Of a DNA stretch of 52,063 nt, positions 1 through 52,063 are shown piece after piece (the stretch's first letter is position 1; the number at the start of each line of letters is the position of its first letter). The stretch spans positions 1 to 52,063 of the forward strand of contig NZ_JBAMHQ010000003.1 of assembly GCF_037081775.1 (NCBI RefSeq). The letters are read 5' to 3'. The DNA comes from Haladaptatus sp. ZSTT2. GTDB taxonomy: Archaea > Halobacteriota > Halobacteria > Halobacteriales > Halococcaceae. The notes below the pieces were generated by a model. The model saw nothing but the letters and a program-made list of their open reading frames with translations, had not been told where the DNA came from and did not search any database. Position numbers and translations under genes: made by a program.

Positions 1-22
1 CACAGCGGTTTTCCTGAGTTAC
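1..22 (+). repeat. ORB-like repeat a
   Basis: Core CAGCGGTTTTCCTGAGTT, identical to the copy at 51945-51966. It is followed by a G-run, as in haloarchaeal origin recognition boxes. Likely Orc1 binding site. Confidence 0.7.
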
Positions 23-63
23 CCACACGAAGGTGGGGGTACCAGAGACGGTTCTACCTCTTA

Positions 64-85
64 CACAGCGGTTTTCCCGAGTTAC
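64..85 (+). repeat. ORB-like repeat b
   Basis: Core CAGCGGTTTTCCCGAGTT, one change from repeat a; the same sequence appears at 52008-52029 in the overlap. Same orientation as a. Likely Orc1 binding site. Confidence 0.7.
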
Positions 86-214
86 TCACTAGAGTAGGTA
101 GCGTCCACTTCAAGTCGAACCTGCGGTACTACTACTAGCTATCATAACTGTAACGGTAGTAGTAGTAGTTGCCGCTAGGTGATTAGAGAGAAACTGATAG
201 AGTTGGAGTCGTCT

Positions 215-383: not shown

Positions 384-698
384 TCACATCTCCCGATCGA
401 TTTCGAGCTTCCGCATGGCTCGTTCGAATACGTCCGGGTGACGATGGGCGAGATTCTCGAGATGATTCCGAATGGACTGGGCCGGATTGAGGTCGACATC
501 ATCTGTGTCCTGGAGTTCACGCCAGAACTGATGCATTTCTTCGCTTACGGAGACGCCAATCGTGTGGTCCTTCACGCCAGTGTTGAGTGCGTCGTAGTAG
601 GGTTCTGTATCGAAGTCCGACGAACCTTGCTGATCCACTCGGTCTTTTTCCTCCGCTGCGTCATCCATCGCTTCGCCGAATGGATTGTCGTTGCTCAT
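384..698 (-). CDS. Small acidic protein next to origin, putative partition/copy-control partner
   Basis: 104 aa, start ATG at 698. The protein is highly charged, with an acidic, disordered-looking N-terminus and a helical C-terminal half (around residues 45-100). I recognise no definite family; size and charge would suit a small DNA-binding adaptor. It lies 24 bp downstream of the AAA+ ATPase gene on the same strand, so the two are probably co-transcribed. An AT-rich dyad (704-728) sits just upstream of its start. An ATPase plus small partner beside the origin suggests segregation or copy control; no ParA/ParB pair is evident elsewhere in the window. Confidence 0.7.
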   Translation of the reverse strand: MSNDNPFGEAMDDAAEEKDRVDQQGSSDFDTEPYYDALNTGVKDHTIGVSVSEEMHQFWRELQDTDDVDLNPAQSIRNHLENLAHRHPDVFERAMRKLEIDREM

Positions 699-703
699 AC
701 ACT

Positions 704-728
704 CTTATTCTTAAGCTTAATATTAAAG
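704..728. repeat. AT-rich dyad, copy 1
   Basis: Contains TTCTTAAGCTTAATATTAA. It lies between the ATPase and its small partner gene. It belongs to a family built from TTAATCTTAA/ATATTAA units that recurs at seven other places here. Probable protein-binding site (operator or centromere-like); inference only. Confidence 0.5.
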
Positions 729-1652
729 ATATTCGTCTAACGTCTCATCCGTAATCTCGACGTCCTTTTTGGCTGAGAATTGCTGCGCACCAGCCCGGAA
801 TGCGTGATAGCACTTCTGTCGAGTATTACGCGGAGTCCCATCGCTGACTTCGACGACGGTCTCGATAGCACTCGCCGTGTAGGGGTCAGACGGATATCCA
901 GAATCGTACTCTTCCTCACGGGCCCAGGCAAGCCACCTGGCAATGAGTTCTTCTGTTTCTGCGAACCCGAACCGCTCCAGCGTCCGATCCTTCGCGACGA
1001 GTCGCGAACTGAGTGTCTCGCGCAGTTCGTCTATACGATTACCGGCACGTTCCGTTCCGAACAGGAAGAGAATGAATACAGGCTCACTTTCTCCGAGATC
1101 ACCAACGCTTTGCAACGCGGCTAGTAGCTGCTCGAAGGTCCGTGTATTCCGAGCTGCATCCTCGAGTTGATCGACCTGAATAATACACGCGATATCGAGG
1201 GCTTCGAGCTGGTCGGCAACCCCCTCGACGATCTGTCGAACTTCGTCTGTGGCGTGCGGGTAGGACTCTGGAATCTCAAGGTCATCGTACTCATTGAGCT
1301 CGTCGAGAAGGCGTGTATAGAAGCGACGTGTTGTGATGGACTCCACTTCGCGTATTCGAGCGACTCGAAAGTCTTCGCTCCGAGGGCCATCTGAAAGAGC
1401 GTCGTACACGAGATCACGGAAGTGAGATTTCCCAGCACCCCGTTCATCGATGATCGAGATGTGGCCAGCACGATTGAGTATGTGACTCGCTACTTCATTG
1501 AGCAGATCTTGATTGACTCGCACGGCGATACTGGCGTTCGGAAGGGTTTCGGCAGTGAAGGGAATCCGATCTGGCTTAATCCCCAGCTGTTTCGCGTACG
1601 CCGCTTGTGCCTCCTCCGTCTGGTCAAGGGCGTCGGTGAATTGATCGCTCAT
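723..1652 (-). CDS. AAA+ ATPase (Orc/Cdc6-like core), plasmid maintenance
   Basis: 309 aa, start ATG at 1652. A degenerate P-loop is visible as DERGAGKSHF (about residue 69), a Walker B-like strand ending IIQVDQLEDA (about 160), a sensor-1-like strand FILFLFGTERA, and a sensor-2-like segment GTPRNTRQ near the C-terminus. The arrangement resembles the AAA+ core of Orc1/Cdc6, but I see no C-terminal winged helix, so it is unlikely to be a second initiator. It probably works with the small gene downstream in segregation or replication control. AT-rich dyads lie just upstream (1676-1712) and just downstream (704-728), as if they were operators or a centromere. Confidence 0.8.
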   Translation of the reverse strand: MSDQFTDALDQTEEAQAAYAKQLGIKPDRIPFTAETLPNASIAVRVNQDLLNEVASHILNRAGHISIIDERGAGKSHFRDLVYDALSDGPRSEDFRVARIREVESITTRRFYTRLLDELNEYDDLEIPESYPHATDEVRQIVEGVADQLEALDIACIIQVDQLEDAARNTRTFEQLLAALQSVGDLGESEPVFILFLFGTERAGNRIDELRETLSSRLVAKDRTLERFGFAETEELIARWLAWAREEEYDSGYPSDPYTASAIETVVEVSDGTPRNTRQKCYHAFRAGAQQFSAKKDVEITDETLDEYL

Positions 1653-1675
1653 AGTGGCTCATCATACTGCTCCGA

Positions 1676-1712
1676 CTTAAATCTAAGCTGAAGATTAATC
1701 TTAAGATTAAGC
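1676..1712. repeat. AT-rich dyad, copy 2
   Basis: Contains the near-perfect palindrome TTAATCTTAAGATTAA, 24 bp or more upstream of the ATPase start. Probable operator or partition site of the downstream ATPase pair; inference. Confidence 0.5.
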
Positions 1713-1758
1713 TATAACTGTTTTTGACCTACTTCGGCCGACAATCGATGCCACCATC

Positions 1759-1799
1759 TTAACCAACAACCCACGCACGACATCAATTTTGTTGGTTAA
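1759..1799. repeat. TTAACCAACA inverted repeat, site N1
   Basis: Arms TTAACCAACA (1759-1768) and TGTTGGTTAA (1790-1799) separated by 21 bp. The right arm directly abuts the stop codon of the DUF6788-like gene. Five such sites exist on this molecule; function unknown. Confidence 0.7.
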
Positions 1800-2129
1800 T
1801 TATTCGCTCTGACTCACCGGCCCCTTATACTTCGACTTGATCTTCTCTCCATCTCTCCATTGCCAGTAGTAGTACTGGTTGTCGTTGATCTCCTTTACCG
1901 TGAGAGTGGCTTTCGTTGGAACGTCATTCGGAAGATCTTCAGGACGCTCGTCGACGCCTTCTGCGTTGCCCTCCTCAGCGTCGCGTAATCGCGCTTCACG
2001 TTCTCGATATTCTGCAAGTGCCTCGGCGTAGCTGCCAGCTGCGCGGAGTGTCTCAATATCACAGTTGTCGAGTTGCTCTACGAGTTGGGCTGGCAGTTCT
2101 GGTGGGGTTGTCGGTTCGGAGTACGGCAT
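1800..2129 (-). CDS. Small haloarchaeal protein (DUF6788-like)
   Basis: 109 aa from ATG at 2129 (MPYSEP); an upstream reading to 2303 is open but would overlap the dyad and looks non-coding. The N-terminal half is helical and charged; the C-terminal third has an aromatic strand (YYYWQWRDGEKIKSKYKGP), which I remember as typical of DUF6788 proteins of archaeal plasmids and viruses. Function unknown; the basic, aromatic end would suit nucleic-acid binding. The gene is bracketed by two copies of the TTAACCAACA inverted repeat (1759-1799 and 2153-2195), like a small cassette. Confidence 0.8.
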   Translation of the reverse strand: MPYSEPTTPPELPAQLVEQLDNCDIETLRAAGSYAEALAEYREREARLRDAEEGNAEGVDERPEDLPNDVPTKATLTVKEINDNQYYYWQWRDGEKIKSKYKGPVSQSE

Positions 2130-2152
2130 CGGACTCACCGTCCGGACAGGAC

Positions 2153-2267: not shown

Positions 2268-3620
2268 ATGGGAGTTACGTTCCTCCACACCGCGGATTTC
2301 CATCTCGGAAGTCCACTCCGCGCTGTGGAAGCGGCATCTGAATCATTGGCTGAGCGCCTGCAGCGAGCGACGCACGAAGCCCTCCGTCGAGTTATCCAGG
2401 TCGCCCTCGACGAGGACGTCGACTTCGTCGTTGTCGCTGGCGACCTCTACGATCAGCAAGCGCGCTCAGTCTACGCGAATGAATTTCTCGTCAATCAATT
2501 CGAACGGCTCGAAGACGCCGATATCCCGTGTTATGTTGTCCACGGGAATCACGATCCACTGGGAGCAGGGGCAGAGAAACTCCCCTTACCCGATAACGTC
2601 CACGTGTTCGGTGCAGACGACGTCGAGACGGTTCTGTACCCCAACGACGACGAGCCGGAGGCCCGCATCATGGGACAATCCTATGGAAGCCAGTGGGAGA
2701 GCAACTCTCTGTACTATCACTACACACCGCCGGATACAGCAATCCCGAATATTGGCCTGCTCCACACGGGCCTGAATCCGGATGGTCGGCGGTACGCCCC
2801 CTGTGGGCCCAGCGACTTAGCACAAAAGCAGATCGATTACTGGGCGCTCGGGCACATCCATACGCCACGGCTCGTCGACGGAGCGCCAGCGGCGTACGCT
2901 GGGATACCACAAGGACGAAATATTGGTGAAACTGCCATCGGCGGGTGTTTGCTCGTCGACGTGGATGCAGGTGGCGACCCTGACATCGAGTTCGTTCCGA
3001 CGAGCCCGATCGTCTGGCAGGAAATCGTAGTCGACCTCGGCACTGCGAGCACAGACGACGATACTCCCCTTCGCAACCTTGCAGATGCGGAAGGGTACCT
3101 CGAGGAGCGTATGTTAGACCTTCGGGTAGCGGACCAGGACTCTCTCACTGACACCCTTCCGATGCCGGTGGCTGAGACAGACTGGATGCCAGAGGGGTTC
3201 GTGTGTCGATGGACGCTGAGTGGCCGTGGAGAGCTATCTGAAGCGCTTGATGAGGAAGCGACGGATGTGCTTGCCAACCGTCTGCGGGAGCGCAGCAGTA
3301 GCGCTTCACCCTTTGTGTGGACCGAGTCCGTCCGTGATTACTCTGCGCCACCGCTTCCAGACCTTGAGACGTTAGTAGAGTCGGACGAGATCATCAGCGA
3401 ATTGGTTGAGCTTTCCAACGAGATACGAGCGGACGACGCGGCACGAGCTGCGCTGCGAGCGAGGACAGGTGACGTCTGGGAGTGGCGGACGGACGAAGAA
3501 CACGAAGACGTTTCAGAGGACCGGATTGCGTTGGACGAGGAACGGCTAGACGACCTGATTGACCGCGCCGTCACTCGGTCAATCGACGAACTTGCGACGC
3601 GGAGGGACAATGCGAATTAA
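2268..3620 (+). CDS. Metallophosphoesterase, SbcD/Mre11-like nuclease (YhaO-like)
   Basis: 450 aa. All calcineurin-type metal ligands are visible: TADFHLGS (D10, H12), VAGDLYD (D59), VVHGNHDP (N94-H95-D96), and LGHIHTP with its paired histidines near residue 195. This is the Mre11/SbcD nuclease fold; the partner order and length match bacterial YhaO more than chromosomal Mre11. The C-terminal 150 residues are acidic and probably hold the ATPase-binding and capping parts. The stop overlaps the next start by 11 bp (3610-3620), so translation with the SMC-like ATPase is coupled. The pair should form a membrane- or DNA-end-associated nuclease complex that opens blocked or hairpin DNA ends. Confidence 0.92.
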   Translation: MGVTFLHTADFHLGSPLRAVEAASESLAERLQRATHEALRRVIQVALDEDVDFVVVAGDLYDQQARSVYANEFLVNQFERLEDADIPCYVVHGNHDPLGAGAEKLPLPDNVHVFGADDVETVLYPNDDEPEARIMGQSYGSQWESNSLYYHYTPPDTAIPNIGLLHTGLNPDGRRYAPCGPSDLAQKQIDYWALGHIHTPRLVDGAPAAYAGIPQGRNIGETAIGGCLLVDVDAGGDPDIEFVPTSPIVWQEIVVDLGTASTDDDTPLRNLADAEGYLEERMLDLRVADQDSLTDTLPMPVAETDWMPEGFVCRWTLSGRGELSEALDEEATDVLANRLRERSSSASPFVWTESVRDYSAPPLPDLETLVESDEIISELVELSNEIRADDAARAALRARTGDVWEWRTDEEHEDVSEDRIALDEERLDDLIDRAVTRSIDELATRRDNAN

Positions 3621-6513
3621 GAACTTCGATCTGGACGATTTCGGATGCTTCAGGCGAGCTCGACTCCAAAATGTCGATGATGGATTGACCGTCATCGCTG
3701 GCCCGCAACGAGCGGGGAAAACGACGTTTATGGAAGCGGTTCGCCATCTCGGCTATGGGATTCCTCGCGGCAATGGTCTCCCGCCAGCAACGGACCAGTA
3801 TGACCTCACGGCCGACGTCGTCGTCGACGGCGCTGAATACGAACTGGCACTCACTGGCTATGGTGATCCTGCACTAGCGCCTGTCAATGGTGCCCCCGAT
3901 CGAGCACTCTCGGATGTGTTCGGCAATCTAGGGCCCGCACAGTACCAGCAGCTCTTCACCATTAGTCTCGACGAACTCCGGCGGTTGCCAACGAGTCTTG
4001 ATGACGACGTTAGCCTGTCAGCAATCCTACTCGGTGCAGCATATGGTGACGTCCTCAAAATCCCACAGATTCAAGAGGCATTCAGTGATCGGGCGAAATC
4101 GATCGGAGGCAAACACGGACGATCGGTCTATGACCTCAAAGGACCAATTAATGCGATTCAGTCGGGGGTCGATGCACGAGACGCCGCCGTCGCCCAGGTC
4201 GACGAGCACGACCGGAAACAGGCTGCTCGTGACGATGTGAATTCCCGCATCGCGGAACTTGATGAGGAGATTGCTGATCTAACAACGGAACAAACCCGTC
4301 TCAACACGGTCCTCACGGAATACGAGGAGTTCGAGTCGCTTCAGGAGCTGAATCTTGAACTTGATGGGGCCGACCTTGACAAAGTCGATGCGTTCCCGAC
4401 AGACCAACTTGACCGCGCTCGGCAACTGCAAAGTCAGCTAGCGGAAGGGCAGGAGGAATTGACGACTGCGGAAGAAGCGTTCGCTCGACAGGTTAGTGCG
4501 GAGGATCACGAAGCGTATCGCGACCGGTTACTGGATGCCACGTCTACGATACGGGCGTACAACAGGGAAATCGCTGGCTGGCGTGAGCGGGTAAATTCAC
4601 TACAAGAGCAACGGTCTGAGCTTGCGAAAGAGCGTCGAAAACTTCGCTCCCAGGCTGCGGACTTGCAACCTGGGTGGGATGGCGAGTCCTTGCTTGACCG
4701 GGTTCGTGATGTTGAGACCGACCTGTTCTCTCGCGATGAGGTTCGGTCGATTACGCGCTCCTGTGAGGATCTCAAATCCGAATTAGATGAGGTCAAGCGC
4801 AACCTGAACGAGAAAACGGCTCGTCACGAACAGCTGGAACAGGAAATCGACACTGCAACCGACTCATCATCTGAGGCGTCTCACACACTTCGTGACCAGC
4901 TTCCCGTCGCTGCGGGTGGGACGGTAGTCGCGCTGATTGTGGGGAGTGCGGTGGGCGTTGTTGGTGGCGCGATTCCTGGTGTCGTCATCACGCTCGTGAT
5001 AACCCTGATCGTCGGCGCGTATGCCGCGTCACGGCTTGAATTCGAGTCCCCTGGAGTCGATGGCGTATCTGTCGAGACGCTTCGAGCAGACAAACGCAGC
5101 CTGACTGCCGATATTGAAGGACTGCGCTCTCGAAAAGCGGATCTCGAAACAGAGTATTCGACCCCGACCGAGCAATTGGACTCCCTCCGAGAGAAGCTCG
5201 GACTCTCAAACGATACGAGTCCTGCTGCCGTACGAGAGTTCTATGCTGACATCTCCTCGCTCCGAGGCGATCTCACGACGCTGGAAGGAGACGTCGAAGC
5301 CCTCGATGAGAAGGAGGAAACCCTCCGTTCAGACCTCGCAGCAGCCGCCGATACCATGTCCGAACTCGGTGTTCTCGATACTGACGATATCGACCCGCTC
5401 GAAGACGCAGAGAAATTGTTCGCGACGATCGAAAATACCGAAGACGACCTCGACCTCGCACAGGCGGTCACGACAGCCCAACGGACCGTCACCAGTCACA
5501 AAGATGACCTCCGTGATCTCTTAACCGAGTGGGACGATGCACCAGATCTCACCACTGCTGATTCAGCTACTGTCGTTCGTACGGCCGACCAGTTCCTCGA
5601 ACGCGGTGAGAGCGTCACCGAGCTCGTAGAAGCGCGGGAACAGCGCGACGAGATTCGCGTCCGACTCAAGCGCCGACTGACGGCGTCAGCCATCGAACCA
5701 GCGTTTGAGTCGTACCGCGATTCAGAGGACGACGATGACGACTGGGCGCTTGCCGCGTTCGAGCGTGTCGTTGAGGCGTACGCTGATAGAGAGGCGATCG
5801 AGGAGCGACTTGATACGATTGGGGAAACCATCGAGAGCCTTGAAACGGAACGATCGGATTGTGTTGAAGACCGGGTTGAGCTCACGAGAGAGCTCGAAGA
5901 GCTCGCCTCTGATGACGATGTTCGCGAGGCACATGCGACGATCGAGGCGGGACGACGTCGGCTCGAACCGCTAGCCGAGGAGTATGCGACGTCTCGCATC
6001 GCCGAGTACCTGCTGAACGAACTCCACGAACGCTTTATTGACCGGACGACAGGTCCACTCCTCGACGAAGCCAGCGAGATTTTCGCGCGAATCACTGACA
6101 ACGCCTATACCGAGGTTGACTCCACTAACGAGTTCGACAATCTCGACTTCCAGTCGGTGCTCGCTGATGGCCAGACACAACGTACCGCGGAATTATCGCG
6201 AGCCACCGCCGAGCAGCTGTTCCTCGCGATTCGCCTTGCTCGGATTCGTCGCCATGAATCGTCGCTCCCTGTGTTGCTCGATGACTCGATGACGAATTTC
6301 GACCCCGCTCACCACGTTCGAACGCTGCAGACGATCTCCGAGTTGGCGGATACGAACCAGGTTTTCCTGCTGACGTGCCACCCGGAACTTCTTGAACGAG
6401 TCGATACGCACACAGATAGCGCCCAGTACTGGGGTCTTGACGATGGTCAGTTCGATGGGCCTTACTCTGAGCCAGACAAACCCTGCGAACTGCTGGAGCC
6501 AACCTGGTCGTAG
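3610..6513 (+). CDS. SMC/Rad50-like ATPase (YhaN-like, AAA_27)
   Basis: 967 aa from ATG at 3610 (MRIKNF). The Walker A GPQRAGKTT is at residues 31-39. Two long coiled-coil stretches surround a hydrophobic insert around residues 435-475 (Val/Ile/Gly-rich, probably two membrane helices). A signature-like ELSRATAEQLFLAI and Walker B LPVLLDDSMTNFD come near residue 900, followed by an H-loop-like LLTCHPELL. The transmembrane insert in place of a zinc hook is what separates YhaN proteins from Rad50/SbcC. It overlaps the nuclease gene and is convergent with the TPR gene, whose stop abuts its own. Likely regulates the nuclease subunit at DNA ends. Confidence 0.92.
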   Translation: MRIKNFDLDDFGCFRRARLQNVDDGLTVIAGPQRAGKTTFMEAVRHLGYGIPRGNGLPPATDQYDLTADVVVDGAEYELALTGYGDPALAPVNGAPDRALSDVFGNLGPAQYQQLFTISLDELRRLPTSLDDDVSLSAILLGAAYGDVLKIPQIQEAFSDRAKSIGGKHGRSVYDLKGPINAIQSGVDARDAAVAQVDEHDRKQAARDDVNSRIAELDEEIADLTTEQTRLNTVLTEYEEFESLQELNLELDGADLDKVDAFPTDQLDRARQLQSQLAEGQEELTTAEEAFARQVSAEDHEAYRDRLLDATSTIRAYNREIAGWRERVNSLQEQRSELAKERRKLRSQAADLQPGWDGESLLDRVRDVETDLFSRDEVRSITRSCEDLKSELDEVKRNLNEKTARHEQLEQEIDTATDSSSEASHTLRDQLPVAAGGTVVALIVGSAVGVVGGAIPGVVITLVITLIVGAYAASRLEFESPGVDGVSVETLRADKRSLTADIEGLRSRKADLETEYSTPTEQLDSLREKLGLSNDTSPAAVREFYADISSLRGDLTTLEGDVEALDEKEETLRSDLAAAADTMSELGVLDTDDIDPLEDAEKLFATIENTEDDLDLAQAVTTAQRTVTSHKDDLRDLLTEWDDAPDLTTADSATVVRTADQFLERGESVTELVEAREQRDEIRVRLKRRLTASAIEPAFESYRDSEDDDDDWALAAFERVVEAYADREAIEERLDTIGETIESLETERSDCVEDRVELTRELEELASDDDVREAHATIEAGRRRLEPLAEEYATSRIAEYLLNELHERFIDRTTGPLLDEASEIFARITDNAYTEVDSTNEFDNLDFQSVLADGQTQRTAELSRATAEQLFLAIRLARIRRHESSLPVLLDDSMTNFDPAHHVRTLQTISELADTNQVFLLTCHPELLERVDTHTDSAQYWGLDDGQFDGPYSEPDKPCELLEPTWS

Positions 6514-6894
6514 CTATCCCGATTTGTTCTCTGCTAGCTCTTTTGCCCGATGCAGTCGTTTCTGTAGGTCGTCTCGGGGTGAGCAAGCGTTGTTGAGGTA
6601 ACGCTCGATGATTTGAATCTCGTCGTCGTATCGGGTCTCCTTCCGATAGACGATTGCGAGATGTTTGTAATACCACGGCGCTGGATCGCCAAACTCCTCC
6701 TGTTCAGTTTGCTCAATGCACCAGAGGAGCAACGATTCGGCCTCGTCGTGGCGCTGCTCGCGCTTTAGCTGTTTGATCGTATCGACTGCACCGGTGTAGT
6801 GATCGAACGAACCAACCGAGGAAGCCGTCGCTGAATCCTTCTTTGGGCTAGCATCTCCTTTGCTTCCGAGGGCACGCAGTAATCGGCGGAACAT
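6514..6894 (-). CDS. TPR-like small helical protein
   Basis: 126 aa. After a basic Ser/Thr-rich N-terminus (residues 1-30) come two TPR-like helix pairs with the familiar A/Y spacing (ESLLLWCIEQTE, WYYKHLAIVYRK, IIERYLNN). The gene is convergent with the SMC-like ATPase and shares a zero-base boundary with it (6513/6514), and is divergent from the AddB-like operon 77 bp away. Its placement between the two end-processing operons suggests an adaptor for one of them, but nothing in the sequence proves it. Start ATG at 6894 gives a basic MFRRLLRALG opening. Confidence 0.75.
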   Translation of the reverse strand: MFRRLLRALGSKGDASPKKDSATASSVGSFDHYTGAVDTIKQLKREQRHDEAESLLLWCIEQTEQEEFGDPAPWYYKHLAIVYRKETRYDDEIQIIERYLNNACSPRDDLQKRLHRAKELAENKSG

Positions 6895-6971
6895 GGTTTC
6901 TCGCGTTATATCTCCGTCATCGTATAGTCGCGTGCTGAAGATTTATCAAATGGGATGCAGACGACAGTACT

Positions 6972-9047
6972 ATGTCTGCAATTGGTCACACAATGACGGA
7001 GCTTCCCGGTGAGCTTCATCTGTTCTCTCCAACCGGCCCCCCGATTGAGGAGCGAGTCGCACCTATCTTCGCCGAGTGTCTGCATGAACACGATGTCGGC
7101 GATATCCTCGTGTTGAAGCGGTTCCCGACTGGCATCGAGACGTTTACGGATGTCTTGGCCACTCACGTCGACTCGGTTGAACGACCAGAAGTGATGTCGC
7201 TCACGCGGTTCGCACGGACAATCCTCGAAGCGAGCCCAGAGAACCCGACGCTCGTCTCCCAGCATGAACGTGCTGCAGTTCTCGCGTCGGTCCTCTCCGA
7301 GTACGAATGGACCGACTCGTTTCTGCAACAAGCGTCGGCATTCGATGCCTTCGAAGACGACGTCGGTCGCTTTACCTTGGCAGCAGCGTGGCAAAATCAG
7401 AATGTCGACGCGACCGATTCGTCGCTCGCCGAATTATTCGATTTCACGGCGCATCTGCAGGAGGTTCTTGCGACGAACGGGTATGCTGAACGTGCGAGCA
7501 TCATCCCACGAGCATTGGAGTACATGGAGACGGAGACCGCAAGTCCACCGATTCTCGATCGGTTCGACGTGATTCTGACAGTAGAGGTCGAGGAGTTCTC
7601 CGCTCTGGAACGCCGATTCTTGGCAGCCGCGTCGACGGACACTGAACTGGTGTGTGTCGGAGAACGACATGGGAGTATTCAGCGGATCAGGAACGAACCT
7701 GGAGACATCACCGACTATCTCCAGATGGAAACCGTCGTCCACGATTCCTCGTCTCCCATCTCGGGCCCTGCCCAGGTAGCAGCGCATCTCGCGACCGGCG
7801 AAGCGCCACAACCGGAAGCTCCGGACGGTCTCTTCGAGATAATCGAGGGAACGTTCGCCGATCAGGTACAGACCGTCGCAGAAGAAATCGAACGCCGGCG
7901 AACGACAGAGGGGTGGTCGTACGATGAGTTCGCGGTCGTCCTCAAAGATTCGAGTTCGCCTATCCAAGAGACTGTCCGTATCTTACAGCAGGCAGGCATT
8001 CCGACGGCGTCCATCACCACGAGTGCGCTCTCTGATGACCCCGCTGCTCGGGAGCTGTATCACGTTGCTCGATATCTCGAGTCGGGCGGAGACGACCAAT
8101 CCCGAACGCTGCTCGAAGCCAGAGTCCCGGACTTCACGACGATTCTCGACGACGAGCTGGCGACTGCATCGGTTTCGGACGCCTTGACGACCTGGGTTCT
8201 CGACACAGACCTCAAGCAACGGGTCGCTTCGAACGAATCACGGCTGGAGGCTCGCATCCAGTTCCAGCACATCGAGCGTGTTCTCGACCTCGCACGGTTC
8301 GTTGAGGACTGCCCGCTGCTGGACTCTTCGTGGGACGCGTTCTGTCAAGCACTGGAGCGAGCATTCCGATACTCCGCGCCCGACTTCTACAGTGAGGTCG
8401 ACGTGAAGGAGGGCGGGGTCCTCGTCGACTCTGCCCGCGTGGTCAAAAACGCTTCCTGGAAGGCGGTGTTCGTCTTGAACGTCGTCGAGGAGGAGTACCC
8501 TGCAGTCCCACGGTTTTCGTCGCTCTTTCCGATTGCGCAGCTCAAATCGCTTCCCGAATATCCTGCTGTCACGAGTCCGACTCGGAACGAGGTTCGTGAG
8601 ACCTTCCCGACCGCAGACGACGACATCATCCATCCGTTCTCGGCGTACTATACTGAGCTGAGCCGACGGCTCCTCGCGGTTGGCGCCAACGCGGCGACGG
8701 ATCAACTGTACTTCTGTACCTATGCAGAGAACGCAGCAGATCCAGGAAAGTACAAACAGCCGTCCCGCTTCTTGCAACAACTTCGGGACCAGTTCGAGTT
8801 CGACTCGATCACCCACGAGGACGTCCATAGCCAGGGTCGTGCTGCAACGAGGGTCCTCTCCAGCGTTGAGCGTGCTCTCCAGGACGTACGGACAGCACCC
8901 GTCACTGGCGACGACGTCGACCTGGACGCGGTTGAGACGCAGTTCGGAGCGATTCAGCAGCTGTTGGATGAGACGGATGACCCCGAACTTGAAGCCGCAT
9001 TCGAAGCACATGTCGACTTCGCTGAAGGGAGGGTTCGCCGTGACTGA
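6972..9047 (+). CDS. AddB-like helicase-related subunit
   Basis: 691 aa, start ATG at 6972 (a second ATG at 6993 is possible). The length, an N-terminal Rossmann-like region without a real P-loop, and a C-terminal UvrD-like segment (VFVLNVVEEEYPAVPRF followed by SRRLLAVGANAATDQLYF, which mimics the helicase GLTRA motif) fit the inactive-helicase subunit of AddAB/RecBCD-type enzymes. The nuclease part normally fused to AddB is supplied by the next gene, which overlaps by 8 bp. So AddB appears split in two here. Expected role: DNA-end recognition and scaffold for processive resection together with the helicase at 9954. Confidence 0.75.
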   Translation: MSAIGHTMTELPGELHLFSPTGPPIEERVAPIFAECLHEHDVGDILVLKRFPTGIETFTDVLATHVDSVERPEVMSLTRFARTILEASPENPTLVSQHERAAVLASVLSEYEWTDSFLQQASAFDAFEDDVGRFTLAAAWQNQNVDATDSSLAELFDFTAHLQEVLATNGYAERASIIPRALEYMETETASPPILDRFDVILTVEVEEFSALERRFLAAASTDTELVCVGERHGSIQRIRNEPGDITDYLQMETVVHDSSSPISGPAQVAAHLATGEAPQPEAPDGLFEIIEGTFADQVQTVAEEIERRRTTEGWSYDEFAVVLKDSSSPIQETVRILQQAGIPTASITTSALSDDPAARELYHVARYLESGGDDQSRTLLEARVPDFTTILDDELATASVSDALTTWVLDTDLKQRVASNESRLEARIQFQHIERVLDLARFVEDCPLLDSSWDAFCQALERAFRYSAPDFYSEVDVKEGGVLVDSARVVKNASWKAVFVLNVVEEEYPAVPRFSSLFPIAQLKSLPEYPAVTSPTRNEVRETFPTADDDIIHPFSAYYTELSRRLLAVGANAATDQLYFCTYAENAADPGKYKQPSRFLQQLRDQFEFDSITHEDVHSQGRAATRVLSSVERALQDVRTAPVTGDDVDLDAVETQFGAIQQLLDETDDPELEAAFEAHVDFAEGRVRRD

Positions 9048-9954
9048 TTCTGGCCGGTCGCGACCGTTGTCTCCCTCCCGTCTGGGAACGTACACTCGGT
9101 GTCCGCGTCAGTACGAATATAAGCACGACCTCTCTGTCGCGAACCCCGATCAAACGCGCCGATATTTAGACCGTGGGCTGGCGCTGCACGGCACTATTGA
9201 GTATGTTTGTGAGACCATAGCAGGAGAGTCGGATGAAGAGATTCGTGCGCTCGCGCTCGATGCCTTCGCCGACGAGTGGGACGGTCGTACGAGTCGCACT
9301 GAGTACGCCACTGCTGCCCACTACGAGTACGATAAACAGCTCGCCCGTGCCGCTATTGAGGCTTACTTCTCGACCGGTCCAGGGCTCGATCACGTTCGTG
9401 GATCCGTTCTCACTGAGGTCGAACTCGAATGTGAACGAGATGGGATTTCCCTCCACGGATACGCTGATAACGTCGTCGGTACTGACGACGGCCTTCAGAT
9501 CATCGACTACAAACCATCCGTCAGATACGAGCTCTCGACGAGCGACCGCGCAAAGGAGAAGCTCCGCGAGCACCTTGCCGGCGAGGACTACCACCCTCGT
9601 ATCGTCAAGAGCGCAATTCAGGCAGCGACCTACATCGAGGGGATCCAGAATACAACCGTCTACGAACCGGGGATGGAGGTCGTCTTCACGTACTATGGAC
9701 TGATCGCCAACACGGATCTCGAAAAGAGTACTGCCGGCGTCCAACCCCGTGTTTCGGGCTACGGTCGCGATGTCGAGGAAACCTATTACAGCGAAGAAGA
9801 AACGATCTGGGGGCTGATACAGCGGGCACACGATGGGATCCGTGAGGACAACTACGAACCCATACGGTGGGACGCAATTCGTGAGAACGCCTGTGACCGG
9901 TGTGATTACCGCTCTATGTGTACCGATGCACTCGCAGAGGAGGTGCAGTTCTGA
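9040..9954 (+). CDS. PD-(D/E)XK nuclease with Fe-S cysteines (AddB C-terminal/Cas4-like)
   Basis: 304 aa from GTG at 9040 (VTDSGRS), overlapping the previous stop; the frame is open further upstream but runs inside the AddB-like gene. One cysteine near residue 21 (TRCPRQYEY) and three near the C-terminus (ACDRCDYRSMC) give the four-Cys iron-sulfur staple of AddB and Cas4. The nuclease core shows LHGYADNV and, after a turn, LQIIDYKPS, i.e. the D...DxK residues. Its stop overlaps the next start (TGATG), so all three genes are translationally coupled. It most likely cuts one strand during resection. Confidence 0.88.
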   Translation: MTDSGRSRPLSPSRLGTYTRCPRQYEYKHDLSVANPDQTRRYLDRGLALHGTIEYVCETIAGESDEEIRALALDAFADEWDGRTSRTEYATAAHYEYDKQLARAAIEAYFSTGPGLDHVRGSVLTEVELECERDGISLHGYADNVVGTDDGLQIIDYKPSVRYELSTSDRAKEKLREHLAGEDYHPRIVKSAIQAATYIEGIQNTTVYEPGMEVVFTYYGLIANTDLEKSTAGVQPRVSGYGRDVEETYYSEEETIWGLIQRAHDGIREDNYEPIRWDAIRENACDRCDYRSMCTDALAEEVQF

Positions 9955-12900
9955 TGTCGCCTCCTCCCGCTGAAGACGACCCCGACGATGAGCCGTCGCC
10001 GCGGATTCCCCAACAGCGTATCATCGAGTCTGGAGAATACCCAATGCGGGTGCTGGCCGGAGCTGGGACCGGGAAGACGTTCACGATGGTTCGGAAAATC
10101 GAGCACCTGATCGACGAACACGACGTCTCACCGGATCGAATCCTCGCATTAACGTTCACGAACAAGGCTGCAGACTCGATGCGCGAGAAGCTGAATGAGA
10201 AGCTTGGCGCACCGGGATACGACGTGAACGCATACACCTATCACTCAATCTGTCACGATATCCTTCGAGAGTATGCGTATCACGCTGCAATCGATCCGCA
10301 ATTCGATGTCGTGAATAACGCTGATCGAACCGCCCTCATTCACGAAGCGCTCGACGAAATCACCTATCGATTCACCAGCCCTGAAGTCTATGGCCCCGAC
10401 TCACATGCTGATGGGGCAGCAGGTAGCCTGCTCAAATTCATCTCCACGATGAAGAGCAAAGGAATCTCGCCAGGCACCATCGACACATTCCTTGGTGACG
10501 CTGACCGACTCCTGGAACTGGAGGCACTCGTCGACCGAATTGTCGACCGGGCGAATGAGACAGTCCGGGTCAGCTGGCGGGCCCCGTCTACAGACCGCCT
10601 CGAGGAGATGCGTGACGGCCTCGCCGACCTCCAGCAATCGATAGCATCCGAACGAACCGCGCTCGGCCAAACCGGTGTCGAACAGTCGGTCGCGACGTAT
10701 CTGCGCGGCATGGAGGAGACCTGTACCTCCCTCGACGAGCTATTAGAAACGGAGGAGGCGTCGATTATCGATGGTGAGCACAAGCCCGCGTTCCGTCTAC
10801 CGGCCTATCTGTTCGGGACGTACTCCAGTCCACCGAGCGGTATCCCCGACTCGATGTCCGTCACGCTCACCGGGAAACTTCGGTCGTTCGTCGAGGAATG
10901 CCAGGAAGCAGCCGATCTGGTCGCTGGCTATACCGCGTACGAGCAACGCCTCCGCGAGGCATCGCTGGTCGACTTTGCCGACTTGATCGGTGCGACGCTC
11001 GATCTCCTTGAGGATCCGGACATCCGTGCCGAGATTGCGGGACAGTATGATTACGTGTTCTGTGACGAATTCCAGGACACAGATGCTGTCCAATTCGAGC
11101 TGGTCGACCAGCTCGCGGACGATGACAAACTGTTCGTGGTCGGTGATGATGACCAGGCGATCTACGAGTGGCGTGGGGCGGCAGTCGAGAACATCGGGCA
11201 CCGACTCGAGGAACGCTACGAGACGCTGGTTCCAGAAACGCTTGAGGAGAACTTCCGCTCCAAGCAACCGATTCTGGATGTCGCGAACAACGTCATTGCA
11301 CAGCTAGAGGCCCGTGGAAGCGAGAAGGAACTCACCGCAGTCGGTGACGCTGCGGATGCGAGCGATGGCATTGCGACGATAACGGCAGCTGAGGACGATG
11401 AAGTGCAGGCTGAACAGATTGCGACTGCAATCGGCCACCTCCTTTCAGGGTCACTCGGTGACGTCGATGAAACGTATGATGCGGGCGACATCGCACTTCT
11501 CGTACGGAAAAATCGCCATGCAAAGCCGATCGTACGGGCGCTTGAAGAGCGCGGCATCCCGTATCAACTCGCTGGTGGACTCGCGGCCGATTCGGTTGGT
11601 GTTGAGACCGTCCTCGCGTATCTCAAAGCACTTGCGAACCCAACGGACGAGGTCAGTCTGAATCGTGTGTTGACGATGCGCTATCGGCTTCACGACGCTG
11701 ATATACGACTACTCAACACTGCCTCTGATTCGTTATCGGAGGCCTTGCAGTCGCTTCCACTCGACCAGTTTCGTGAACCTGAGCGCGTTCGTCGTGCCCG
11801 TGAAGATTTCCAGGCGCTACGTGCCAAGCGAGAGATCTACTCCGTAGCTCGTCTGTTCCGCGAGTTGAAAGAGCAGACGAATATCCACTGGTACCTGTCG
11901 CCACAAGAACGACGAGACCTACGAACCCTGGAGTCACTTATCGACTCCTTCGGAGAGGGCGCGCTCCAGCCAGCATTAGACGAGTCGTTCCTCGAACTGC
12001 TCTCCCTCATGGGGTCACTCGACGATAGCATCGCTGGCGTCCAAGACCAGGCTGACACGGTGCGTGACGCGGTCAACATCATGACCGTGCACAAGAGCAA
12101 GGGACTGGAGTTCCCGGTCGTCTTCCTCCCGAACCTTTCTGCTGACCAGTGGGAACCGAGTACGCGCTCGTACGATACACTCGGCCACACGCTCGAAGAG
12201 ACAGCTGCTACCCCGCTCGACCAAGACTTCGAAAAGCGCGACGAGTACGAAGCGCGCCGCATTTTCCACGTCGCCATGACGCGTGCGGAAGAACAACTCG
12301 TACTCGTTGGTCGGCACGCCGACGACGGCGGAGTTGATGACAGCGATCTCTCGCTATCGTTCATCGACTCCTGGCTCCCCGAGCAAATCCCTTGGCGGGC
12401 CACCGGCGCATCCTTCCCCATCTGGCAAGAGGTCACTGCTGGACTTCCACCGGCAGCCACAGATTGGACGGACAAGGTTGCTCCGACCGATGGCAGCGTC
12501 GATCCGACTATCTCTGTGGACGGCGAACCAGTACCCCAGTCAGCGGCCCGGGACCGCGTCCTGGCACTTGCTCGTGGTTTACTGAACGGGGACCTCGACT
12601 CTGTCTCACCTGCAACGGCTGGATTTGCCGTTGAAGCGCTATCGACGGATGGTGGTCCTGCGCTGAGTCACCGGCACAGCTATACTTCGCTCGAGAAGTA
12701 CAGCCAGTGTTCCCGGCGTCACTATCTCGATTATCTGGTTCGTGCGTTCGAGGATCCCCAGCGAGGTGCCACCGGTTCCGACACCGTGTCGATTCGTGAT
12801 ACGGGTATCCTCTTCCACGATACGGCTGAGCTAGCTGCGAAACGGAGTCTGACATCTCCTGAGGAATGGAACGATGTCTGCGACGAACTCGGCCGCCAGG

Positions 12901-13385
12901 AGAGTTACTCTGCTGATATCGTTGATCAGGCCAAGGACTGCATCGACCGGTACTTCAGCACTGGGGCAAGTTCGTGGGAGATCCTCAGTGCAGAACGGTC
13001 GTTCACGCTCGACATTGATGGTCATACGATTACGGGGAAAATTGACGCTGTCTGTCGCAACTCGGCTGGCAACCTCGTCGTCCTCGATTACAAGGCGACC
13101 ACGATGCAGCGCTCGCTCGATGACAACCTCCAGTTACCGATCTATCTGCTCGCCTGCCAACAGCTCTTCGACGAACGAATCGAGGAAGCTGGCTATGTCT
13201 ATGTCGGGTCGGTTGGCCCCGACATGAGTACTCGTGCGTTCTCTGATGATGAATTAGCGCAATGCCGAGAAGACCTCCTCACACGGTTACAAGCGGCTGA
13301 AGACTCGACCTTTGACGACTACACTGCGGGCGATCACTGCCAGTGGTGTCCCCACCGTAGCCTGTCCTGCAGCCAAACTCACTAA
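9954..13385 (+). CDS. UvrD/AddA-like helicase with C-terminal RecB-type nuclease
   Basis: 1143 aa. SF1A motifs in order: VLAGAGTGKTFTMV (Walker A, K41), LTFTNKAADSMREK (Ia), YDYVFCDEFQDTD (II), VVGDDDQAIYEWRGA (III), FRSKQPILDVAN (IV), VNIMTVHKSKGLEFPVVF (V) and IFHVAMTRAEEQLVLVG (VI). The last 230 residues are a PD-(D/E)XK domain: SLEKYSQCSRRHYLDY, GKIDAVCRN, LVVLDYKATT, ending with a cysteine cluster (HCQWCPHRSLSC), so a second Fe-S nuclease. It forms an operon with the two genes before it (TGATG overlap at 9952-9956). Expected activity: ATP-driven unwinding and degradation of linear DNA, as in AddAB. Confidence 0.92.
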   Translation: MSPPPAEDDPDDEPSPRIPQQRIIESGEYPMRVLAGAGTGKTFTMVRKIEHLIDEHDVSPDRILALTFTNKAADSMREKLNEKLGAPGYDVNAYTYHSICHDILREYAYHAAIDPQFDVVNNADRTALIHEALDEITYRFTSPEVYGPDSHADGAAGSLLKFISTMKSKGISPGTIDTFLGDADRLLELEALVDRIVDRANETVRVSWRAPSTDRLEEMRDGLADLQQSIASERTALGQTGVEQSVATYLRGMEETCTSLDELLETEEASIIDGEHKPAFRLPAYLFGTYSSPPSGIPDSMSVTLTGKLRSFVEECQEAADLVAGYTAYEQRLREASLVDFADLIGATLDLLEDPDIRAEIAGQYDYVFCDEFQDTDAVQFELVDQLADDDKLFVVGDDDQAIYEWRGAAVENIGHRLEERYETLVPETLEENFRSKQPILDVANNVIAQLEARGSEKELTAVGDAADASDGIATITAAEDDEVQAEQIATAIGHLLSGSLGDVDETYDAGDIALLVRKNRHAKPIVRALEERGIPYQLAGGLAADSVGVETVLAYLKALANPTDEVSLNRVLTMRYRLHDADIRLLNTASDSLSEALQSLPLDQFREPERVRRAREDFQALRAKREIYSVARLFRELKEQTNIHWYLSPQERRDLRTLESLIDSFGEGALQPALDESFLELLSLMGSLDDSIAGVQDQADTVRDAVNIMTVHKSKGLEFPVVFLPNLSADQWEPSTRSYDTLGHTLEETAATPLDQDFEKRDEYEARRIFHVAMTRAEEQLVLVGRHADDGGVDDSDLSLSFIDSWLPEQIPWRATGASFPIWQEVTAGLPPAATDWTDKVAPTDGSVDPTISVDGEPVPQSAARDRVLALARGLLNGDLDSVSPATAGFAVEALSTDGGPALSHRHSYTSLEKYSQCSRRHYLDYLVRAFEDPQRGATGSDTVSIRDTGILFHDTAELAAKRSLTSPEEWNDVCDELGRQESYSADIVDQAKDCIDRYFSTGASSWEILSAERSFTLDIDGHTITGKIDAVCRNSAGNLVVLDYKATTMQRSLDDNLQLPIYLLACQQLFDERIEEAGYVYVGSVGPDMSTRAFSDDELAQCREDLLTRLQAAEDSTFDDYTAGDHCQWCPHRSLSCSQTH

Positions 13386-17819: not shown

Positions 17820-17869
17820 TGACGCCTCCTCAACCAACGTCCTACTGCTGCATCCATGCGTTGGTTGAG

Positions 17870-18994
17870 TCACTCGCCAAGAAGGTCGTCGACTTGCTTC
17901 GCGGTTTCAGCTGCTTGGATGTCGGAGTACGACTCGTGGGTCGTCTCGATGCTCGCGTGTCGGAGTGCTGATTGGGCGAGTTCGGCGTGGCCGCTCGCGT
18001 AGAGTTCGTGACCAAGCCCTCGACGGGCACCGTGTGGCTTCAGGTAGTCACCGTCGACGTCGAGGTCAGCGTCATCACACAGCCGCTTCATCAGGTTGCG
18101 AGCACCGTTCGTCGAGAGCGCTGGTGGGATGATCCCATGTTCTCGGAGCACCGTCTCGATATCGCTGCGCTCGAGAATGGTCTCGATCTCGTCGTCCGAA
18201 ACTCCCTCGTGGGCAAGCTGCTCGCGAACGGCGCGATATTTCGACGGGACGTGGCCGCTGGGAAAGACCGGCCACTCGTCAGTCGGTGGATCGAGGACAG
18301 TCCTGTACCGCTCTAATGCCGTGGCGGCCCGCTCGGGAAGCTGTGCGTACTCGTACTCTCGTGACTTCCCGAGGACGCGGACGGCACCGGAGTCGAGTTG
18401 GACGTCTCCCCAGGTGATGCCGTTGCGCTTGTCGTCCGAGGGTTCAGCGAACACCTCCGCGCCGCGAACGCCCGAGAGTCCCAGGAGATAGACGATTGCT
18501 CGGTCGCGAAAGGCCCGCTCACGACTCACGTCCGCTTCCTCGTCAAGGGCGTGGTCGACACGTTCGTCGACATAGCGCATGATCGCCCGCCGCTCCTTTT
18601 CCCGCCAGAACTGCCGGTCGGCGTCACCGAGATCCTCGGGGAGCTCGTCGGTGGCACGCTTCGCTTTGGCCGGATTCGTATCGAGGAGTTCGTCTGCCAC
18701 GCAGAACGTGAGGAACGCGCGGACGTACGCGTAGTAGGTGGTCGCGGTACTCGCTTTCAAATCACCGTCGCGGGCCTGCTTTTTGAGATGACGCGCGTAT
18801 CGGCGGCAGTCGAGGACGTCCAGGTCCTCGAGGTCCGTCACACCGCGCTCCTCGCGCAGCCAGGTTCGCCACGTCGCGAGGGTCGACGCGAAGTTCTTCC
18901 TGGAGTTACCAGCCTCGACACTGTCGAGGTACTGCTGGATGGCCGTCTCGACCGGTGTTCCCCCGGGTGTAGCGTCGCCCTCGTCGGGTTCCAT
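17870..18994 (-). CDS. Tyrosine recombinase/integrase (XerC/D-like)
   Basis: 374 aa from ATG at 18994 (MEPDEGDA); the frame is open to 19063. An N-terminal SAM-like domain (about 20-110) is followed by the catalytic domain with GLSGVRGAEVF (first Arg), VRVLGKSREYEY (Lys), LKPHGARRG (HxxR), ALRHASIETTHESY (His and the nucleophilic Tyr). All residues are in place, so it should be active. Codon use is more GC-rich than in neighbouring genes. It could resolve plasmid multimers, integrate the plasmid, or act in trans on the small islands at 29.4 and 39.7 kb, which carry no recombinase of their own. Confidence 0.92.
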   Translation of the reverse strand: MEPDEGDATPGGTPVETAIQQYLDSVEAGNSRKNFASTLATWRTWLREERGVTDLEDLDVLDCRRYARHLKKQARDGDLKASTATTYYAYVRAFLTFCVADELLDTNPAKAKRATDELPEDLGDADRQFWREKERRAIMRYVDERVDHALDEEADVSRERAFRDRAIVYLLGLSGVRGAEVFAEPSDDKRNGITWGDVQLDSGAVRVLGKSREYEYAQLPERAATALERYRTVLDPPTDEWPVFPSGHVPSKYRAVREQLAHEGVSDDEIETILERSDIETVLREHGIIPPALSTNGARNLMKRLCDDADLDVDGDYLKPHGARRGLGHELYASGHAELAQSALRHASIETTHESYSDIQAAETAKQVDDLLGE

Positions 18995-19382
18995 GGTTCG
19001 TGCTCGACCGACGGCGGCGACCCATGTAAATCTACTGTGTACAACTGGGATAATACACAGCAATTCTAAATTCTTAAATTCTTCCTATATCGAAGGGTAC
19101 ACAGGCTATAACGGTGATATTCTATTTTATGAACTGTATGTGGCTATACAAAATGCCGGGTGGGCTGAGGCCACAGATTCGGAGGATTCGTAGCTACAAA
19201 TCATCATCATCATGGCCGACTGGCTGCGAAAAAGACGCCTAATCGGTAGGGAGCGAGGGATTGGCGGATTCATCCTTGATGAAGACGACGTGAATCCCTA
19301 ATACAGCCTCCAGTCGGTCACGATTCCCGCACATGTGGTATTTGGCTGCCGAGACAACCTTTTCGAGAGTATTGGAATGCGG
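18995..19382. other. AT-rich intergenic stretch
   Basis: About 390 bp. A 29-codon frame (19214-19303 region, starting MADWLRKRR) is open but too short to support. No repeat shared with other gaps and no tRNA-like end was found beside the recombinase gene. Confidence 0.4.
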
Positions 19383-22272: not shown

Positions 22273-22342
22273 TATCACTCGCCGTGGTTTTCAAACACAA
22301 AAATCGTACTGTTCGGTCGGGCTTCGAACCAGACTCAGAGGG

Positions 22343-23301: not shown

Positions 23302-23304
23302 AGG

Positions 23305-24186: not shown

Positions 24187-24344
24187 TAATGGGAGTTACA
24201 CGCCTCTTTCTGACCGACCGCTAAAACCCCCCCGATTCCACTTCCACCGTGCTCTGCGAACCGTTAAGGGACCGTAGCAGGCAATTAGAATCGTGACCGT
24301 CCCGTCTCCTATCGAAACTCTGCCAATTTCTCTTGGTGGTGGCT
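24187..24344. promoter_or_regulatory. Shared control region of two divergent CBASS operons
   Basis: Only 158 bp separate the start codons of the two CD-NTase genes, so both promoters lie here back to back. A TATA-like GTTTTAGC is readable on the minus strand (about 24218-24225), some 32-39 bp before the first start. I see no operator-like dyad and no regulator gene beside it. Confidence 0.55.
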
Positions 24345-50557: not shown

Positions 50558-50579
50558 CACAGCGGTTTTCCTGAGTTAC
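50558..50579 (+). repeat. ORB-like repeat e at the orc1 stop
   Basis: CAGCGGTTTTCCTGAGTT core identical to repeat a, overlapping the orc1 stop codon. A perfect ORB on the far side of the initiator gene, about 1.4 kb from the origin repeats. Confidence 0.7.
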
Positions 50580-51889
50580 TCTTTGATTCCGCGGACATCG
50601 ATATTCAGCCATTCGAGGTTGCGATCCTCAAACGCATCCCTCACCTTCTGCGGGTCAACATCATCGCTGAACTGGTGTTCATTCCACTGTCCACCGCCCA
50701 CGCCTTTGTTGTGATCGATGGTATTCACAAACCCGAACATCACTAGTTTCGAGAGATGATTGAACATCCCGCGTTGAGTGAGCGGATCCTTCCCCGTCGT
50801 CGTATTATAGGAACGGACCACACGAGAGTAGGCAGCGTGAATCGTACGTGTCCGAGCTGGCGTAAGGCCAGCTCTATCGAGATGAGCAAGTGCCTTCAGA
50901 ATGTAGAGCTTCTCGTCGTCCTGGTCAACGATCGATTCGACGATGTTGCCATACTCCAAGTCCTTGTCGGCTTGTCGAATATGACTCTCTTCGATTAGGT
51001 CCGAGCCATTTTCTTCAGCGGTCTCCGCAGATCGGCGAAGGAGTCGGATCGCCCGACGAGCACTTCCTGACGCCTCCTGATAGGCGAGCGCTGAACAGAG
51101 AGAAATCGTCTCCTCAGTATAGGCATCATCGTAGAGAGCGAGTTTTGCACGTGCGCTGAGGATGTCAGAGAGCTCTGTCGCGTTGTATGCAGGGAATTTG
51201 ATCTCGGTTTCACACAGGCTGTCTTTCACCTTCGGAGAGAGGTTCTTTCGGAAAGTGTAATCGTTACTGATGCCGATAACGCCAACGCGGACGTTTTCGA
51301 CATAGCCGATATCGCGAGAGCGTGGGAGTTCGTAGAGGAGTGTATCGTCGTTCCCGATCTTGTCGACTTCGTCTAAAATCACGAGGACGGTTCCCTCGAG
51401 GTTGTCGAGCTCCTCGTACATGATGTCATAGACGTCCTGTGGGGCATAGCCAGTCCCCGTGATCCGATTTCCTTTATCTCGGAGTCGATTTACGATCCCC
51501 ACGGCGACTTGGTACGACGAGGTCTTGTGGTCTCCCGTGGTGAAATTCTCGCAGTTAATCCAAACGACGTTGAGGGTGATCTGTTCGTCTTCGGGAAGTT
51601 GTTCGTTCTTCCGCTCGATGTCATGTTCGAGATTTTCTCGAAGGTACTTCGTCGCCGCGGTCTTCCCGACGCCCGTATCGCCGTAGAGAAACGCGTTCTG
51701 CGGTGGTCGACCCTTGTAGATTGGCTTGAAAACACTCGTGTACTGCTGGAGGACGTCGTCCCGACAGAGGATTTCATCGGGAGTGTAATCTTCTTCGAGT
51801 ACGTCGGCGTTCCTGATCAGCTCGACATCATCGGCGAAGATTGAATCGACGTCGTCCATGATAGGAAAGACTGACGTATCCAACGACAT
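50576..51889 (-). CDS. orc1: Orc1/Cdc6 replication initiator
   Basis: 437 aa from ATG at 51889 (MSLDTSVFPIMDDVD); the frame is open to 51970 but that would run through origin repeats. AAA+ motifs: AFLYGDTGVGKTAATKYL (Walker A), TVLVILDEVDKIG (Walker B), VGVIGISNDYTFRKNL (sensor 1) and GSARRAIRLLRRSAE (sensor 2). A C-terminal winged helix (LTQRGMFNHLSKLVMFGFV) binds the ORB repeats. It reads away from the origin. As the only complete initiator seen, it should drive replication of the plasmid. Confidence 0.95.
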   Translation of the reverse strand: MSLDTSVFPIMDDVDSIFADDVELIRNADVLEEDYTPDEILCRDDVLQQYTSVFKPIYKGRPPQNAFLYGDTGVGKTAATKYLRENLEHDIERKNEQLPEDEQITLNVVWINCENFTTGDHKTSSYQVAVGIVNRLRDKGNRITGTGYAPQDVYDIMYEELDNLEGTVLVILDEVDKIGNDDTLLYELPRSRDIGYVENVRVGVIGISNDYTFRKNLSPKVKDSLCETEIKFPAYNATELSDILSARAKLALYDDAYTEETISLCSALAYQEASGSARRAIRLLRRSAETAEENGSDLIEESHIRQADKDLEYGNIVESIVDQDDEKLYILKALAHLDRAGLTPARTRTIHAAYSRVVRSYNTTTGKDPLTQRGMFNHLSKLVMFGFVNTIDHNKGVGGGQWNEHQFSDDVDPQKVRDAFEDRNLEWLNIDVRGIKE

Positions 51890-51908
51890 TAATCTTTCCC
51901 GAGTTTCA

Positions 51909-51925
51909 TGAGTTTCCTGAGTTGC
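51909..51925 (+). repeat. Imperfect ORB-like repeat f
   Basis: GAGTTTCCTGAGTTGCC resembles the 3' half of the ORB core; it lies 20 bp upstream of the orc1 start and may serve in autoregulation. Confidence 0.4.
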
Positions 51926-52063
51926 CCGAAAACCCCACCTCTCACACAGCGGTTTTCCTGAGTTACCCACACGAAGGTGGGGGTACCAGAGACGGTTCTA
52001 CCTCTTACACAGCGGTTTTCCCGAGTTACTCACTAGAGTAGGTAGCGTCCACTTCAAGTCGAA

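Follow-up and report, generated by a model that had tools for sequence, protein, structure and literature searches.

Gene content of the plasmid

The DNA analysed here (the window) was a whole contig (C3) of a four-contig haloarchaeal genome and comprised exactly 52,063 bases. The perfect repeat at its two ends corresponds to the overlap of a circular assembly, and therefore the contig is a circular plasmid of about 51,944 bp (51.9 kb). Together with the Orc1/Cdc6 gene, this repeat bears out the preliminary description, in which the locus was called plasmid-borne. An integrase gene was also present. The features of the plasmid considered below were as follows.

1..119, no strand: direct repeat identical to 51945-52063 (perfect 119-nt terminal repeat)
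2268..3620 (+): Mre11/SbcD/YhaO-like metallophosphoesterase nuclease, 450 aa (Pfam Metallophos, 1.2e-14)
3610..6513 (+): YhaN-like SMC/Rad50-type ATPase, 967 aa (Pfam AAA_27, 5e-15; 56 bits against a cut-off of 22)
6514..6894 (-): 126-aa ORF between the modules, kept in the closest relatives, no Pfam match
6972..9047 (+): B, predicted AddB-type subunit of helicase fold, lacking Walker A and nuclease, 691 aa (AlphaFold, Foldseek)
9040..9954 (+): N, AddB-type Fe-S PD-(D/E)XK nuclease, encoded separately, 304 aa (Pfam PDDEXK_1, 6.4e-23)
9954..13385 (+): A, UvrD-type SF1 helicase with a C-terminal Fe-S PD-(D/E)XK nuclease, 1143 aa (Pfam)
50576..51970 (-): Orc1/Cdc6 replication initiator of the plasmid (Pfam Cdc6_lid, Cdc6_C)

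The plasmid is rich in defence genes. Two CBASS operons (CD-NTase plus a Cap15-type (Cap15/2TM) effector) lie head to head at 22660-25917. Furthermore, a Mokosh-like SF1 helicase with AAA_11/AAA_12 is encoded at 19960-22278, matching MkoA over its C-terminal part with 260 bits, and an ArdC-N-domain protein is encoded as well. The two CBASS operons are divergent, and their cyclase genes are partly alike, as inverted copies. An IS605-type TnpB/Cas12f1-like gene was found at 48161-49414.

The plasmid of Halomarina sp. BCD28 (L303) has the same backbone as window positions 384-2133 and 17859-19060. In that plasmid, the interval between the shared flanks holds a different PD-(D/E)XK and helicase pair, of 860 and 965 aa. 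Because the slot holds another pair there, it seems to accept alternative helicase-nucleases, as an interchangeable cargo site.

Organization of the five genes

All five reading frames were open, with the coordinates and overlaps first described. The most probable starts are ATG 3610 for the SMC-like gene, GTG 9040 for N and ATG 9954 for A. The SMC-like gene overlaps the preceding Mre11-like gene by 11 bp, N overlaps B by 8 bp, and the N/A junction reads TGATG. The five genes had been taken as one block. Their adjacency was confirmed, but not the single unit: two separable modules were found, since the trio B-N-A almost always occurs without the Mre11-SMC pair and the pair was also found without the trio.

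The Mre11-like protein has the motifs DxH, GD, GNHD and GHIH all intact. The SMC-like protein shows a Walker A (GPQRAGKT), an ABC-type signature and a Walker B, read from the sequence, and a hydrophobic insert in the middle of the coiled coil (about 4905-5040), which was present in 22 of 22 relatives examined. A metallophosphoesterase gene followed by an SMC-like AAA_27 ATPase with a membrane insert is the arrangement of YhaO-YhaN, and the YhaNO-like assignment made at first sight was upheld by these domains and the conserved insert. The pair differs from SbcCD and Mre11-Rad50, as it stayed below the equivalog cut-offs for SbcD (TIGR00619, 72.9 bits against 77.65), Mre11 (Mre11_Halo, 36.6 against 550) and Rad50 (Rad50_Halo, 32 against 1000). 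Beyond the closest relatives, the Mre11-like protein was 30-50% identical to other haloarchaeal ones. A relative of it was found in 18 of 292 genomes, and a large SMC-like gene followed it in all 17 further loci read. In L163, L166 and L167, the pair recurs in a four-gene cassette, its neighbours there encoding an RNaseH_2-HHH protein (485 aa) and a DEAD/MZB helicase (855 aa).

The Mre11-SMC pair is a separate, independent module. It would probably be a membrane-held end or structure nuclease, which could create ends or hand them over. It is improbable that all five genes form one system, in which Mre11-SMC would find or cut the target for degradation by the AddAB-like trio. On three other replicons (the Natrinema zhouii plasmid L032, L036 and L037), pair and trio are neighbours in the order of the window, the pair being 90-95% identical, and in the distant relatives G046, G157 and G010 a single contig carries both at a distance of 17-29 kb. 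Moreover, the trio was present in 11 of the 18 genomes with the Mre11-like gene (Fisher p 0.026, kinship ignored). However, adjacency was restricted to the window and these three close relatives, and in L037 a 2.9-kb insertion sits exactly between pair and trio. About 100 trios had no pair nearby, and the pair also occurs alone.

Identification of the helicase-nuclease A

The A protein matched Pfam UvrD (2.2e-64), UvrD_C (3.6e-39) and PDDEXK_1 (3.1e-25). Its Walker A lies at residues 36-42 and DEFQDTD at 371, and the nuclease site is formed by D1031, D1045 and K1047, with cysteines at 919, 1129, 1132 and 1139. Across 102 loci, the helicase motifs, the nuclease D-D-Y-K and the four cysteines were kept at close to 100%. 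With the NCBIfam models, A scored 301 bits as PcrA and 182 bits as AddA (cut-off 707.65), and B had no match.

Gabija was considered and rejected, as the GajB match of A covered the shared UvrD core only, and B and N had no GajA match. The SMC protein matched the GajA models over its first ~65 residues (the P-loop) only, with E about 1e-3.

B and N as the two halves of AddB

No significant Pfam match was obtained for B from the single sequence, and a PDB search with the single sequence likewise gave nothing useful. The identification of B came only from the family profile and the predicted structure. Compared with solved structures, the profile of 44 homologues matched AddB (3u44_B, 3e-8), AdnA (2.8e-5) and UvrD1 (5e-9), and individual members of the family matched Pfam UvrD_C and ADDB_N. 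The AlphaFold model of B (pLDDT 86) had AddB (4cej_B, E 6e-24) as its top Foldseek match. In VIA-align, it was superposed on AddB with a Z of 24.8 and an rmsd of 5.2 over 605 residues, spanning AddB 2-767. UvrD chains gave the top Z (28.4), but with an rmsd of 6.7 and fewer residues. B was assigned to AddB despite this higher Z because of the Foldseek rank, the coverage and the complementary match of N.

The N model (pLDDT 89) matched AdnA with a Z of 16.7 (residues 788-1039) and AddB with a Z of 16.3 (residues 782-1138), and the N family profile gave no match to PDB sequences. The catalytic residues of N are D143, D156 and K158, and its cysteines lie at 21, 285, 288 and 294. Since B corresponds to AddB 2-768 and N to AddB 782-1138, the gene boundary falls between AddB residues 768 and 782. 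Furthermore, B and N aligned to consecutive stretches of the fused AddBs of other archaea, at columns 11-566 (E 1e-16) and 720-1023 (E 7e-7). No Walker A was found in B among the sampled members across the family alignment.

B and N are thus predicted to be the two halves of AddB. The suggestion that the AddB nuclease domain had become its own gene was in agreement with the Foldseek result and the complementary structure alignments. The other outcome foreseen, that the gene at 6972 belonged to an unrelated family, was not found; B matched AddB by both profile and structure.

Comparison with known systems

The trio was compared with the AddAB of Bacillus (PDB 3u44/4cej). Like the A subunit of AddAB, the window A joins an SF1A helicase to a C-terminal PD-(D/E)XK nuclease. 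The helicase fold and Fe-S nuclease of the B subunit were likewise found, as two genes, with B plus N equalling AddB; the one-polypeptide AddB was absent, B and N being separate genes in all loci extracted. One subunit thus combines motor and nuclease, and the whole has two nucleases and one motor. The haloarchaeal proteins differ from the AddAB of Bacillus in further respects: B has no Walker A, the nuclease of A has four conserved cysteines, A scores higher as PcrA than as AddA, and the tree does not group the haloarchaeal A with archaeal or cyanobacterial AddA. Neither A nor B reached the NCBIfam AddA/AddB equivalog cut-offs.

AdnAB of mycobacteria (PDB 6ppj/9np6) also has a UvrD-like motor and a nuclease in one subunit, with a partner of motor and nuclease, and its AdnA nuclease domain was the best structural match of N. 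However, AdnAB consists of two polypeptides with AdnA unsplit and has two motor-with-nuclease subunits, whereas the haloarchaeal form has three genes and a partner motor (B) without Walker A.

A third group, the UvrD-Cas4 fusions, occurs in many bacteria and mesophilic archaea and has been tied to defence loci (Hudaiberdiev et al. 2017, PMC5704561). Like A, these proteins join a UvrD helicase to a Cas4-like Fe-S nuclease. They were described as standing alone or in non-conserved contexts (PMC5704561), whereas the haloarchaeal A always comes together with B and N, and such fusions from other archaeal classes fell outside the haloarchaeal A clade. Compared with these systems, B-N-A is a split-AddB, AddAB/AdnAB-type enzyme of haloarchaea. 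In the literature searched, no account of an AddAB-type enzyme in haloarchaea was found.

Distribution and origin

A match to B was found in 141 of 391 Halobacteria genomes, and all 80 B loci among the matches listed belonged to Halobacteria. An A homologue lay downstream of B on the same strand in 104 of 104 fetched regions, with a third ORF (N) between them and overlaps of mostly 8 or 4 bp. Three loci were left out of the alignments: L049 (A gene looks broken), L078 (B looks broken) and L079 (cut by the contig end). Since B-N-A occurs as three genes throughout the extracted loci, the split is the rule for the haloarchaeal lineage. In haloarchaea, the three-gene form is both old and widespread.

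In the A tree, all haloarchaeal members grouped in a single clade (support 100), which splits into two subclades and contains no bacterial row; the tree has long bacterial branches, and only this clade was used, the deep order being set aside. Matches covering 80% or more of A came from only 15 plasmid records, and the bacterial plasmid matches span mainly the helicase core.

AddAB and YhaNO are familiar chiefly from bacteria, and two-gene relatives occur on plasmids of cyanobacteria and Agrobacterium, from which a recent acquisition of AddAB by the plasmid from bacteria could be proposed, as in the preliminary description. This origin is very improbable. Against it stand the single haloarchaeal A clade, the Halobacteria-only matches listed, the wide spread in Halobacteria and the helicase-core nature of the bacterial plasmid matches. 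As no bacterial row falls in the clade, a bacterial origin is unsupported only as a recent event; an old transfer from bacteria into the haloarchaeal ancestor is possible.

Two-gene operons of a fused AddB (about 1020-1050 aa) and AddA were found in non-haloarchaeal classes of the phylum (L199-L205, L208 and L209), and NCBIfam described the proteins of the fused-AddB operons of other archaeal classes as AddB-like and AddA-like. Another haloarchaeal AddAB-like pair, in which AddB is fused, lies next to a BrxA-family gene on two Natrinema plasmids (L219 and L220); this pair is closer to the AddA of other archaea. In viral contigs, no relative of B was found with narrow search patterns.

Two subfamilies of the trio

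N has kept its catalytic D..DYK at 54 loci and no longer has it at 48, and the cysteines of N were kept in nearly all loci. The degenerate N (e.g., L044-L047, L105, L118 and L130) retains the Fe-S cysteines without the DYK and belongs to a chromosomal subfamily, whose core neighbours are ProRS, NUDIX, UvrA, folP-type, TPP enzyme and ADH genes. Such neighbours were found at 25 of the 48 loci with degenerate N and at 1 of the 54 with intact N (Fisher 1e-9, kinship ignored). The intact-N subfamily, which includes the trio of the window, lies on plasmids or beside defence-type genes: PIWI, PLD, methylases, BREX-5 and restriction-modification. In the window copy, the nuclease sites of A and N are both intact. 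Chromosomal relatives in a housekeeping context, named beforehand as evidence against the preliminary reading, were half confirmed: many members are chromosomal and stand beside core genes. The loss of the N active site on chromosomes and its retention beside defence genes provide a natural experiment on the purpose of the second nuclease.

Proposed function

Domains, folds, split point, catalytic residues, gene coupling and distribution were read directly. By analogy with AddAB and AdnAB, B, N and A would form a complex that loads on free duplex ends, unwinds them and cuts both strands. A would be the only motor, of the 3'-5' UvrD type, carrying one nuclease. B, helicase-shaped and motor-dead, would hold the end of the duplex; like RecC and AddB, it may also read the emerging strand in search of a stop sequence. 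N would be the second nuclease, a separate polypeptide docked where the nuclease domain of AddB itself would be, and A and N would cut the two strands. With the N site lost, the chromosomal enzyme would be left with a single nuclease, like RecBCD, and the retention of both nucleases in the mobile lineage would fit a more destructive enzyme.

We consider it rather likely that B-N-A acts as one AddAB/AdnAB-type helicase-nuclease, with A as sole motor, B as motor-dead partner and N as docked second nuclease, and that on the plasmid it serves mainly to destroy invader DNA that is linear or broken, repair being a side effect. From the gene neighbourhoods, invader-DNA destruction seems to fit the context better than plasmid recombination. 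Defence neighbours can, however, be mere co-residents of an island.

Bacterial AddAB and RecBCD do both repair and defence. It is accordingly worth weighing whether the trio serves recombination and repair, through RecBCD-like resection for RadA, and is used for the plasmid's own repair or replication completion, its part in defence being incidental. The core genes next to the sister subfamily (ProRS, UvrA, folP-type and others) point to repair as the task of some family members at least, and the plasmid that bears the trio of the window is a replicating one, with genes for Orc1/Cdc6 and an integrase. However, the chromosomal members, whose N is degenerate, branch as a clade of their own, and the clade of the window has defence-type neighbours and a plasmid location. 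Furthermore, the host genome already has a NurA-domain gene (G000:C1:1095827-1096741) and a second Mre11-like gene, so the trio is not its only end-processing route. Repair as the main role of the trio is therefore unlikely, and destruction of invader DNA is preferred. The premise of the preliminary description that archaea resect ends with Mre11-Rad50-HerA-NurA needs care, as the host itself also has a NurA-domain gene.

Of 31 relatives, 25 likewise had NurA-domain genes, as did the Haloferax volcanii control; the idea that the trio fills the gap of a missing NurA was rejected on this basis. The detection in H. volcanii contrasts with a review (2020) in which HerA and NurA were stated to be absent from this species (PMC7776575).

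Association with the Argonaute operon

A PIWI gene (883-895 aa) was found in 12 regions. Behind it usually come a PLD gene and then B-N-A, all reading the same way. One of the PIWI proteins was run in PADLOC and was recognized as pAgo with 1081 bits. Measured at 11 loci, the PIWI-PLD gap came to 54-63 bp; 10 of these loci have 5 bp between the PLD gene and B. The arrays were as follows.

L065, L068, L070, L073, L075, L082, L085, L087, L091, L096: five-gene ago-agaP-B-N-A array, PLD-B gap 5 bp
L064, L090: further loci with a co-directional ago-agaP-B-N-A array

Piwi genes occurred in 45 of 382 genomes, and the trio was present in 29 of these 45 compared with 112 of the 337 without Piwi (p 6e-5, kinship ignored). 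No Argonaute was found in the window, and no Piwi match was obtained in its genome (G000) either. Hence the long-A Argonaute plus PLD operon of APAP (ago-agaP) is missing from the window genome and adjoins the trio in relatives.

Experiments have established ago-agaP as an immunity system; only ago and agaP were tested in that work, which also mentions a helicase gene near some ago-agaP operons (PMC11442185). As the trio directly follows ago-agaP in relatives, it is probably the "helicase-encoding gene" of that study. A UvrD-PD-(D/E)XK orthogroup near pAgos had been noted earlier (PMC6299218). In the literature searched, the three-gene AddAB nature and the 5-bp coupling to ago-agaP were not found described.

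A broader and more tentative proposal may be made from these arrays. Haloarchaea would have a private AddAB lineage with AddB permanently split, part of which would be built into Argonaute immunity as ago-agaP-B-N-A; the helicase-nuclease would unwind and chop invader ends, supplying ssDNA targets and small DNA guides to Argonaute. On plasmids like that of the window, the same engine would be paired with the membrane-held Mre11/YhaN-like nuclease. For bacterial pAgos in E. coli, RecBCD was reported to shape the distribution of small guide DNA and not to be required for making it (PMC10269773). The ago-agaP-B-N-A operon makes it testable whether an end-resecting helicase-nuclease feeds Argonaute. 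What may surprise a specialist is the breadth of the split-AddB form and the Argonaute operon, the latter in relatives and not in the window. In the two closest relatives of the window block (G185:C41 and G358:C35), a PIWI gene lies 17-23 kb off on the same contig.
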